Positions 43,031-53,102 of a stretch of DNA of 64,000 nt are shown piece by piece. The stretch's first letter is position 1; every line of letters starts with the position of its first letter. The notes beneath the pieces are model-generated. The model had not been told where the DNA came from. It ran no database searches and was given only the letters and a program-made list of their open reading frames with translations. This DNA comes from Halorubrum aquaticum (GTDB lineage: Archaea > Halobacteriota > Halobacteria > Halobacteriales > Haloferacaceae). The stretch spans positions 248,001 to 312,000 of the forward strand of contig NZ_FOPZ01000001.1 in NCBI RefSeq assembly GCF_900113615.1, read 5' to 3'. The translations under genes were made by a program, and so were the position numbers.

Positions 43031-44722
43031 CTACGGGCCGAACGCCTCGTTGAGTCGCTTCCGGAAGGCCTCGAGCTCCTCGAGGTGGTCGTTGATCTCC
43101 GAGATCTCCGTCTCGACGTCCTCGAGGTCGTCCCCGAGCCGTCCCTCGATATCGGTCAGGCGCGAATCGACCTCCGCGAGGTCGTCCCACAGGTCGTCGA
43201 ACTCCTCGTCGAAGCGGCCGAACCGGTCTTCCACCTCGTCGACCCGTTCGTCGGTCCGTTCGATCCCGGCCGCCGCGTCGTCGACCTCCTCGTAGAGGGT
43301 CTCGACGTCGTCATCGACGTCGTCGAGCGCGTCGTCGAGTCCGGCGATATCGGCCTCGAGAGAGGTCACGTCCGCGGCGACGCCCTCGACGGTCTCCTCG
43401 AGACCGTGGGTCGTCGCCTGAACCGCCGAAACGGTCTCTTCGAGGTCCTCGACCGTCGTCTCGACTCCGTCGACGTCCTCGCGTACGACGGCGAGGTCGT
43501 CCTCCACGCTCCCGACGGTCTCGGAGAGGTCGTCGGTGGTCGTTTCGACCGTCTCGACGGACGCTTCCACCTCGTCCACGGTCGTTTCGACCGCCTCGAC
43601 GTCGTCCGAGAGTTCTCCGTGAGCCCGCTCGCCGGCCGTGACTCGGGTGTCGAGGGACTCGACCGTGGATTCGACCTCGTCCACGCGGGCATCGAGTCCG
43701 TCGAGTACCTCCTTCGCCGTTCCCTCCTCGTCGATGAATTCGGCGAGCGCGTCGGCGTACGCCTCGATGTCGGCCACGCTCGATTGGAGCCTGCTGATCC
43801 GGACGTCGACGCTTCTCGGAACGCCGAGATCGAGTTCCGATCGGAGGACTTCCATGTCCTCCTCCTCGACCGCTCCCGACCGGATCTCCTCCGCGAGGGC
43901 GGCGGCGATCCCGCCCTGGGGAGCGGAAGCCGCGGTCGCGTCCGTATCGGGTTCGCCGTCCTCGTCCGACTCGCCGTCCCCTGCCGATTCGACGCCCTCC
44001 GCCGGTTCGGCGTCCTCCGTCGGCTCAACGTCCGCATCGGCCTCGTCGTCCGCGTCCTCGACCGACTCCGCCGTCTCCGCGTCCTTCCGTCGGGTGACCG
44101 CTGCCGTCGTTCCGTCGTCGACGCTTCGCGGCTCGGGGGTCGTGACGGGATCGGCGACCGCATCCGTGTCGTCGGTCGATTCGACGGCCGTATCCGCGTC
44201 GTCGGCGTCCTCCGAGTCGGTCACGTCGTCCTCGTCGTCCGTTGCGTCTCGGTCCGCTTCGGGCGCGTCCTCCATGCCGGGAAGCGTCGCACGGTCCCCC
44301 GAGAGCACCTCGCGGACCGCGTCGGTCTCGCCGGTTCCGAGCACGTCGCCGATCTCCTCGCCGACCGGGACGTGTTCGATGACCGGCGTCCCGAGGAATC
44401 CGTCCAAGTCGGGGTCGTCGTCGCGGATCCCGAAGACCGTCTCGACGGACTCCCCGGGCTCGAGCACGCGTTCGAACTCCACGCGGTGGTCCTTGTAGGC
44501 CGTCCAGTTCTCGCTCTCGTAGTCGGGGTGAAAGCCCACGCGGTCCATGGGGAACTCCTCGGGGATCCGGTCGACTATCCGTACCCGAACCGCGTCCTCG
44601 CGGCGGGAGGAGAGATCGAAGGTCACCGCGGGCACCGGGAACGCGTCGTCGGTGAAGGACTTCTCGACGCGGACGCCGTCCTCCTCGACGGTCGTCGTCG
44701 CTTCCGTCGTCCGTTCGTTCAT
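43031..44722 (-). CDS. Long coiled-coil protein with beta-sandwich head
   Basis: 563 residues. The first 130 form a beta-rich head (TVEEDGVRVEKSFTDDAFPV, then GFHPDYESENWTAYKDHRVE). Residues about 150-260 are an acidic disordered linker. From about 275 to the end a long heptad-like coiled coil runs with repeated hydrophobic Val/Leu every 3-4 residues (ETTVDEVEASVETVETTTDD and similar). No membrane segment or ATPase motif, so not an SMC. It may be a rod or scaffold; the same head appears in other haloarchaeal proteins, but its function is unknown to me. Confidence 0.65.
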   Translation of the reverse strand: MNERTTEATTTVEEDGVRVEKSFTDDAFPVPAVTFDLSSRREDAVRVRIVDRIPEEFPMDRVGFHPDYESENWTAYKDHRVEFERVLEPGESVETVFGIRDDDPDLDGFLGTPVIEHVPVGEEIGDVLGTGETDAVREVLSGDRATLPGMEDAPEADRDATDDEDDVTDSEDADDADTAVESTDDTDAVADPVTTPEPRSVDDGTTAAVTRRKDAETAESVEDADDEADADVEPTEDAEPAEGVESAGDGESDEDGEPDTDATAASAPQGGIAAALAEEIRSGAVEEEDMEVLRSELDLGVPRSVDVRISRLQSSVADIEAYADALAEFIDEEGTAKEVLDGLDARVDEVESTVESLDTRVTAGERAHGELSDDVEAVETTVDEVEASVETVETTTDDLSETVGSVEDDLAVVREDVDGVETTVEDLEETVSAVQATTHGLEETVEGVAADVTSLEADIAGLDDALDDVDDDVETLYEEVDDAAAGIERTDERVDEVEDRFGRFDEEFDDLWDDLAEVDSRLTDIEGRLGDDLEDVETEISEINDHLEELEAFRKRLNEAFGP

Positions 44723-51799: not shown

Positions 51800-51932
51800 T
51801 CCGATCACCCGCTCGGAGCGTGTTCATGTGTCACGATCTATGCCGCTAGTTCCATGAGTGTGTCGGTGGCGCTCCTTTTTCCGAACCGATCTCCCGAGAG
51901 ACCGGGTCGGATCCGGTCCGATCAACACCCAC

Positions 51933-52038
51933 CTTTTTCTCGTCGGGTTCCGCCGCTCACTACGTTCGCTTCGGGAACCACTCCTCGAAAACCCTGGAGG
52001 GAAAAAGCCGACTCCGCCGTCTTCGACGGCTCCGTCGG
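51933..52038 (+). repeat. 5' part of structured element: stacked hairpins
   Basis: CTTTTTC (51933-51939) pairs with GAAAAAG (52001-52007). Nested inside, GGTTCC (51946-51951) pairs with GGAACC (51974-51979) and CTCC (51981-51984) with GGAG (51996-51999). Next, CCGAC (52008-52012) pairs with GTCGG (52034-52038) and CCGTC (52017-52021) with GACGG (52025-52029), loop TTC. The segments lie side by side and nested, as in a folded RNA. Confidence 0.6.
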
Positions 52039-52116
52039 TGAACCGCTCGCTTCGCTCGCGGATGCTCGATCCCCACTGTTCAATACAGTCGAAACAACGA
52101 CCGATTCTGCTGTGCT

Positions 52117-52350
52117 GTGGCGCGCCTCGAGTGGCCCGAAGGGCCGCGAGGAGCCCGCGAGGGACGCTGCGAGCGCTTGGAAAGCGCGAGCAGCGAGGCT
52201 GGGGAGGTCTGAGGTGCGGTCGCGGGGAGGGAGAGACGCAAAGAGGCAGTCGAGAGGACGCCGCAGGCGACGTAAGGACCGCAGGGAGCGAACACAGTGA
52301 GCGACCGAGGACCACAGCGAGCGTGCGGCGTCCTCTCGGCTGGGGCTTTG
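52117..52350 (+). ncRNA. Candidate structured RNA, three hairpins
   Basis: Hairpin A: CCTCG/CGAGG (52125-52129/52147-52151) outside GGCCC-GAA-GGGCC (52133-52145). Hairpin B (52165-52195): CGCTGC and GCAGCG close an inner GCGCTT-GGA-AAGCGC, with GA on both sides as a symmetric 2x2 internal loop, the pattern of tandem sheared G-A pairs. Hairpin C: an 18-bp stem (52247-52264 with 52325-52342; one G-T) extended by CAAAG/CTTTG at 52239-52243 and 52346-52350. The G-A positions make sense on the plus strand. Could equally be a palindromic transposable repeat; expression is not known. Confidence 0.5.
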
Positions 52351-52523
52351 GATGTGTTCACCGCCGAAGTAGCGATCTCATCCCGAACGACTTGATCGTT
52401 CTATAAGCACACGACGTGTCGCGACGCGTCTCGTCCGAAGGATTCACCCGCGTCTCGGACTCCGTCTCCCGGCCCGATCCGTCGCGCGGAAGCGTTAGGT
52501 GTGCGGCGACCGACCGCGACGAC

Positions 52524-53102
52524 ATGGAGCTCTCGCGAGCCGACGTCGAGGCCGCCCTCGAGGCGTATCGGTCGACGGAGCCGCTGTACACCGTCGAATC
52601 CGAGGCCGTCGAGACCATGCCCGACGCGTTCCGGAGCGGCGAGTACGGCCGTCGGGACGCCCAGTGGGTGGTACGGTGGTACGGTCGTCGGTACCTCGGC
52701 GACGAGCCGGCGGACATGGACCGCAGCCGACGGGAGGACGCGTTCGAGGGAGCCGACTTCGAGGCGGTTCGCGACGCGATCTCGACCGCGGTCGAGGCGG
52801 ATCGCGGGGCGTACGGAGCGGCGATCGACGCGCTGACCACGCTGCCGGGCGTCGACCTCCCGGTCGCTTCGGCGTTCCTCGCGTTCGTCCACCCGAACCG
52901 GTTCGTCGTCGTCGGCCCCGACGAGTGGGCGGTCGTCCGTGAACTGACGGGTCTCGAGGGGACGTACCCGGACCCGCCCTCCATCGACGAGTACGACGAG
53001 TACCTCGCGGCGTGCGACGAACTCGCGGAACGGTGCGAGATCGACCCGTGGGAGGTGTACATGCTGGTCTGGCGGCGTCGAACGGAACACGCCGAGCCGT
53101 GA
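52524..53102 (+). CDS. Conserved haloarchaeal protein with helix-hairpin-helix-like region
   Basis: 192 residues. The segment LTTLPGVDLPVASAFLAFVHPNRFVVV resembles the helix-hairpin-helix and following strand of HhH-GPD DNA glycosylases, but the catalytic Asp-Lys pair is not evident. The rest is helical and acidic. The ATG at 52524 is chosen because conserved character begins there; the earlier in-frame ATG adds a Ser/Arg-rich leader. A DNA-binding role is an inference. Confidence 0.6.
   Translation: MELSRADVEAALEAYRSTEPLYTVESEAVETMPDAFRSGEYGRRDAQWVVRWYGRRYLGDEPADMDRSRREDAFEGADFEAVRDAISTAVEADRGAYGAAIDALTTLPGVDLPVASAFLAFVHPNRFVVVGPDEWAVVRELTGLEGTYPDPPSIDEYDEYLAACDELAERCEIDPWEVYMLVWRRRTEHAEP

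Follow-up and report, generated by a model that had tools for sequence, protein, structure and literature searches.

BOX repeats of Streptococcus pneumoniae are modular, intergenic, hairpin-forming and non-coding; they occur in more than 100 copies and have no transposase of their own. In Haloquadratum walsbyi, transposase-free repeats known as PATEs and SMRs occur in comparable numbers and are often nested, and the PATEs, which are remnants of transposons, have palindromes near their ends that are related to IS605 (PMC3119063). The intergenic repeats of the halovirus HF2 measure 56–58 bp, contain a TATA box and act as viral promoters (PMC8707807). Here we describe a non-coding, modular repeat family of haloarchaea, one copy of which lies at 52116–52367 in a 64,000-nucleotide stretch of Halorubrum aquaticum DNA (NZ_FOPZ01000001.1, positions 248,001 to 312,000), hereafter called the window. 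The Haloquadratum PATEs/SMRs (PMC3119063) and the pneumococcal BOX repeats (PMC3049150) are nearest to it in kind.

Two distinct repeats lie side by side next to fdhA

A first-pass annotation of the window, made without database searches, had described a single 420-bp element next to the formate dehydrogenase gene fdhA. The region at 51929–52367 instead consists of two distinct repeats. Module A (51929–52067, plus strand; CCACCTTTTTCTCGTCGGG...CTCCTCGAAAACCCTGGAGGGAAAAAGCCGAC...GCGAGCGGATG) is a separate low-copy repeat, found as the 5' portion of composite copies in one subclade, and it is followed by the element itself. All the stems that the annotation had named were found where it had placed them. 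Those carried by Module A (CTTTTTC/GAAAAAG, GGTTCC/GGAACC and CCGAC..CCGTC) are present, but the module folds at chance level (z -0.4 against shuffled sequence, for 51929–52067 and as far as about 52080), whereas the predicted folding beyond chance was borne out for 52116–52370 (z -7.3 as RNA, -4.6 as DNA). The interval 51900–52400 gives z -3.07 on the plus strand and -0.87 on the minus strand when compared to dinucleotide shuffles.

The element head (52116–52219, plus strand) comprises the P1 hairpin, a GCGAGGGA linker, the P2 hairpin and a conserved 26-nt core; it is matched by the covariance model R1 with an E-value of 9e-10 and is also recovered by the covariance model R2 (G000:C1:300116-300219). 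P1 (52125–52153, plus strand) reads CCTC-GA-GTGGCC...GGCCGC-GA-GGAG, with a tandem G.A internal loop, and includes GGCC-CGAA-GGCC at 52133–52145. P2 (52165–52195, plus strand) has the same kind of loop, CGCTGC-GA-GCGCTT-GGA-AAGCGC-GA-GCAGCG, and is followed by the core (52194–52219, plus strand; CGAGGCTGGGGAGGTCTGAGGTGCGG), of which copies with up to three mismatches were counted. P3 (52239–52350, plus strand) runs from CAAAG through an AGGxGGG internal loop, an 18-bp stem and an apical region to CTTTG. Its stem pairs 52247–52264 with 52325–52342, including one T.G pair, and is lengthened across the 3x3 loop (AGG/GGG) by CAAAG at 52239–52243 and CTTTG at 52346–52350. The conserved 3' end (52351–52367, plus strand; GATGTGTTCACCGCCGA) marks where similarity to most copies stops on the 3' side (at about query position 468), and in other species tandem 57-bp tail units, which contain a TTTATAA box, follow it. 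On the 5' side, the window copy has Module A where the AT box of the family would be.

No tRNA was found in the window, and ORFs overlapping the element had no Pfam match. Over 131 copies, element lengths show no preference for any remainder modulo 3; coding was rejected on these grounds, in agreement with the annotation, which had seen no plausible reading frame. Its further suggestion that the element is undescribed holds against the resources searched: none of the 4227 Rfam models scored above its gathering threshold on the window or on loci of its own and other genera (the best sub-threshold match had E>1, and relaxed thresholds gave none), and no description of the family was found in the open-access full texts searched, an earlier account in subscription papers or preprints being possible. 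Elsewhere in the window, 44062–44112 and 44282–44318 show short, weak similarity to the region (E 2e-4 and 0.013) and are possibly remnants or other haloarchaeal hairpins. The gene downstream of the insertion (52524–53102, plus strand) is conserved in many Halorubrum genomes and has no Pfam match.

The element belongs to a repeat family of the haloarchaeal order

When compared to its own genome by BLAST, the region gave 55 matches, with the 5' and 3' parts often apart, and it was matched in all 52 genomes of the genus. With up to three mismatches allowed, the 26-nt core (CGAGGCTGGGGAGGCGTGAGGTGCGG) has 106 copies in the window's genome and 157, the highest count, in the genome G021. It is present at least twice in each of the 52 genus genomes, with a copy number that differs strongly between Halorubrum species, while the reversed core pattern used as a control is absent from every one of them. 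Named records with copies are Halorubrum species and one called Halobellus captivus. In the genome bearing this last label (NZ_RDQE; L183, L193) the copies are of Halorubrum type and the loci match exactly those of a genome that the genome collection puts in the window's genus, and the label may therefore be outdated.

Covariance model R1 gave strong matches throughout the genus and weaker ones beyond it. With more candidates scored, G169 and G284 reached 68 and 54 matches, respectively, at E<=0.001; their sequences have the same block order, and P2 is a different perfect hairpin in each. The second model, R2, was built from these sequences. At E<=1e-5 it found matches in 126 of the 392 genomes sampled from the order, which represent 33 of its 95 sampled genera; only nine candidates were scored per genome, and the E-values are rough owing to a short calibration. 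Many haloarchaeal genera in the order sample had no match. In the phylum sample all 12 matching genomes fell within the same order, and R2 had no match outside it. Core patterns were absent from viral contigs, a BLAST search of the window copy against a phage collection returned nothing, and haloarchaeal plasmids gave few, partial and weak matches; a viral or plasmid origin was rejected on this basis. A 180-bp match on a Halorubrum salinarum plasmid weakens the notion of a chromosome-only element.

Module A has its own distribution. Nine copies were found in the window's genome, nine in G001, 13 in G011 and none or one in most others; the module alone recurs at 92–93% identity in the window's genome, and composite copies occur mainly in one subclade. 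In G115 and G118, from two further genera of the family, Module A (51929–52067 of the window; L383–L392) is also nearly identical, with one mismatch over 32 nt, and this near-identity suggests that the module spread horizontally in recent times.

Family copies share one architecture, about 250 bp plus a tail, in which conserved blocks are parted by three covarying hairpins. The 5' to 3' order in G021 is AT box, P1, GCGAGGGA, P2, core, G-rich linker, GACTCAAAGGGGCAG, P3, GGAGGTG and tail. The AT-rich TTTATAAAT-like box lies at a fixed distance of 15–17 nt upstream of GGTGGCGCG in most G021 copies, P1 contains the tandem G.A/G.A internal loop, and P3 is closed by CAAAG/CTTTG across a GGG/GGG loop. 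The tail is built from 57-bp units that all contain TTTATAA (135 of 154 steps between units measure 57 bp), and has up to seven extra units. Up to seven near-identical tail units (CTGGGGCTTTGGAGGTG...TATTTATAAGCGAGCGG) stand in a row at L080–L380 of G021, for example at 358886+, and each has a TATA-like box. Conserved G-runs (CTGGGGAGG, AAAGGGGCAG, CTGGGGCTTTGG) are present in all copies in the core (52194–52219 in the window) and in P3, and would allow a G-quadruplex on the plus strand.

Double-hairpin cassettes are inserted within P3 at fixed places, one family in 21 of 21 cases at CGTGG|CA and another in 12 of 12 at (A/G)GGCG|YGACG, and a third cassette family uses several insertion sites. 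Among these families, B (L324, L329, L347, L291 and others) and C (L330, L371, L116, L120) each keep to a constant site, while D (L003, L010, L013, L014) is found at several, sometimes outside the element; cassette linkers are conserved, e.g. TCGTCATCACGA.

Pairing is kept among copies

P2 is paired at 95.3% when compared to 68.6% after its 3' arms were shuffled among copies (maximum of 2000 shuffles, 75.0%), and P3 at 91.8% when compared to 71.5% (maximum 75.6%). Sixty-two of 79 P3 copies are fully complementary over 16 bp, while 3.5 would be expected from shuffled arms. In alignment A2, which contains 43 copies from one genome, 96.7% of the cells pair and 14 of 25 pairs have changed on both sides; the covariation score is 0.316 against 0.098±0.009 in the control, and sliding the partners abolishes it. 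Alignment A3, drawn from several genera and fitted to the structure, scores 0.457 against 0.125±0.011. By pair counts, P1b/P1c pairs also change on both sides across the family, while the outer stem P1a has the weakest covariation. As in structured RNAs, covarying pairs thus exceed both shuffled and slid controls, in tests that use related, not independent, copies and with A3 fitted to the structure. The structure of the element is under constraint.

Forty-eight family copies fold at a mean z of -5.4 on the plus strand and -5.0 on the minus strand (intergenic control, -0.2). Since both strands fold almost equally, folding energy alone is no proof of RNA, and we rejected it as such. Plus-strand G.T pairs outnumber A.C pairs (14:4 in A2, 35:18 in A3, 45:21 in P2/P3), which hints weakly at the plus strand as the folded molecule; the excess in P3 comes mostly from one position, and the copies are not independent. 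With less than 1% of P2/P3 pairs being G.T, the data fit DNA-level exchange better than step-wise compensation through G.U.

Copies are intergenic and inherited and seem to exchange hairpins

Placement was surveyed over 2.4 Mb of the G021 chromosome, using our own simple gene caller. All 146 copies lie between genes, though intergenic DNA makes up only 26% of the sequence, and of the gaps between genes, 11.9% of the convergent, 7.5% of the divergent and 6.2% of the tandem ones contain a copy; dispersed, high-copy, strictly intergenic palindromes of this kind correspond to REP/BIME-like repeats. Orientation is unbiased with respect to genes (31 same and 40 opposite in tandem gaps), on which grounds a UTR or terminator of the neighbouring genes was rejected. 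Copies occur about once per 16 kb, and their spacing is not more regular than that of random gaps (CV 0.88 against 0.98±0.08). Orientation is weakly associated with GC skew (p 0.02), and we did not rely on this association to propose a replication-strand function. Completeness, taken as P1, core and P3 end, was found for 142 of the 146 copies, and among 140 P3-start motifs the two without a recognised core apparently lie within complete elements.

At syntenic sites between species, a copy is present in both at 30 of 36 testable G021 sites, and orientation is the same in 63 cases and opposite in seven. Shared presence and shared orientation argue for vertical inheritance, and the 63:7 ratio disfavours independent reinsertion at hot spots as the explanation of shared sites. 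Of 51 orthologous P2 pairs, five are identical, six carry point changes and 40 have been replaced with complementarity kept, while 57% of the P2 hairpins of G021 have an identical P2 at another locus there. Because P2 is replaced at orthologous sites yet identical at other loci of one genome, hairpins seem to move between copies as cassettes.

In G001, G012, G011, G029 and others, the fdhA N-terminus and the downstream gene occur together with neither core nor Module A at the site, and in G006 and G022 both are missing from the surroundings of the downstream gene. The site is thus polymorphic for presence and absence, as is typical of mobile elements, and the window copy is a recent lineage-specific gain; repeated loss in all these relatives would be less parsimonious. 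Neither a target-site duplication nor a terminal inverted repeat could be defined, the ends not being sharp and the intergenic flanks of empty sites being too diverged. The insertion next to the formate dehydrogenase gene foreseen in the first-pass annotation is in this way confirmed by relatives that have the same neighbours and lack the element, and homologous copies with kept stems, the lack of which would have spoken against its proposal, do exist. The compensatory stem changes that it had named as support for RNA are seen in so far as pairing is kept, but most are wholesale hairpin replacements and not step-wise compensatory mutations. With homologous copies, maintained stems and a site empty in relatives, its proposal of a structured RNA or a palindromic mobile repeat is partly supported.

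Discussion

Many Halorubrum species carry more than 100 dispersed intergenic copies of the element per genome, which are complete and positionally stable and whose hairpins are swapped whole. We favour a mobile element over a host RNA family, a chromosomal DNA site or an insertion-sequence derivative, and consider with middling confidence that it is a persistent, non-autonomous, modular element of the BOX/BIME type, which is recognised by its fold and whose copies recombination keeps alike. We infer that such an element would be mobile without being autonomous and would work like BOX/BIME elements. The plus strand would fold, either as single-stranded DNA or as RNA transcribed from the element's own TATA-like box, and a putative protein that copies the element would recognise this fold together with the conserved blocks. 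New insertions would be rare, while ectopic recombination or gene conversion between copies would swap hairpins and keep the copies of a lineage intact and alike. Copy number, genus-wide presence, the lineage-specific gain, the subclade limits of Module A and cassette exchange count for mobility, as do structural constraint, the fixed sites of the double-hairpin cassettes, the invariably intergenic position, the lack of bias with respect to genes and the predominance of shared orientation at syntenic sites (63 same, seven opposite). The strongest point against it is the near absence of broken copies; a selfish element would not usually show so few truncated copies or 80% positional conservation, which agree equally well with a function for the host. 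It also counts against mobility that we identified no mobilising gene, that no target-site duplication or terminal inverted repeat is definable, and that viral contigs and the phage collection lack the family and plasmids seldom carry it. Mobile elements usually occur on viruses and plasmids too.

The completeness of nearly all copies and their conserved positions would suit a family of host-serving structured non-coding RNA genes, transcribed from the 5' TATA-like box and acting in trans, an explanation that we regard as possible but rather improbable. Its products would be folded RNAs with a common single-stranded core, binding for example a protein or the ribosome. Haloarchaeal promoters have TATA about 26 nt before the start (PMC8707807); most copies have the AT-rich box at its fixed place, and the start predicted at that spacing falls within P1a, the stem with weak covariation. 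The conserved tandem G.A loops, the plus-strand excess of G.T over A.C and the optional hairpins, whose sites are fixed in the manner of large structured RNAs, point the same way. However, the rarity of G.T in P2/P3 and the replacement of whole hairpins speak for exchange at the DNA level, one position accounts for most of the G.T excess in P3, A3 was fitted to the structure and both strands fold almost equally; the window copy, moreover, has Module A in place of the AT box, and copy number varies strongly between species. That haloarchaea alone might possess a new class of large structured RNA, with its own promoter and more than 100 vertically conserved loci per genome, in which hairpins are exchanged while blocks and pairing are selected, is a tentative idea that the sequences permit. 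Folding of both strands would also suit a chromosomal DNA site that serves in nucleoid organisation, segregation or recombination and whose recognised form is a cruciform or a single-stranded hairpin. A density of about one copy per 16 kb, always intergenic and unbiased with respect to genes, the chromosomal location with few plasmid matches and the weak tie of orientation to GC skew agree with such a site; we nevertheless find it unlikely, considering that many haloarchaeal genera have no match, that copy number varies widely within the genus, that the G.A loops are plus-strand-specific and that spacing is no more regular than random, and the skew association could reflect the G-richness of the element or chance. 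Least likely, in our judgement, is a MITE or PATE that descends from one of the known haloarchaeal insertion sequences (of IS200/IS605 or DDE type), as in Haloquadratum walsbyi, where comparable, often nested, transposase-free repeats are known (PMC3119063). The cassettes nested in the element resemble the PATE/SMR habit, but no terminal inverted repeat or target duplication was seen (with ends not sharp and flanks diverged), the multi-hairpin architecture is conserved across genera and almost no copies are truncated.

At about one copy per 16 kb, the element is a major non-coding part of Halorubrum genomes that is missing from the annotation resources searched. Its stable positions, combined with whole-hairpin replacement, make it a natural experiment on the upkeep of folded repeats, which may be due to structural selection, to gene conversion in the polyploid cells or to the two together. 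The covariance models permit systematic annotation, and the element is testable in culturable strains.

Comparison with known systems

With the structured non-coding RNA classes of Rfam, the element shares conserved blocks, covarying helices and tandem G.A loops, while it matches none of the 4227 families. It resembles the HF2 repeats in length and in the TATA/AT box, its tail being a 57-bp tandem unit with TTTATAA, but the HF2 class I motif (TCTTTAAGTC) differs from the tail and HF2 repeats are without the large folded head (PMC8707807); the 58-bp repeats of HF2 were rejected as the source of the tail on account of the differing motifs. PATEs and SMRs are likewise transposase-free haloarchaeal repeats with a nesting habit (PMC3119063), from whose description the element is set apart by an internal covarying architecture common to many genera. 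Like REP, BIME and REPIN sequences it consists of dispersed, high-copy extragenic palindromes with nested hairpin pairs, but it is much larger, multi-block and almost without orphan fragments, and neither a GTAG-type signature nor a RAYT partner, both of REP type, was established for it. The pneumococcal BOX repeats (PMC3049150) share with it a modular, intergenic, hairpin-bearing, non-coding and transposase-free organisation in more than 100 copies. The haloarchaeal element belongs to another domain of life and has another sequence, about 250 bp with three hairpins, and it is distinguished by cassette replacement at conserved positions and by a core found across the order.
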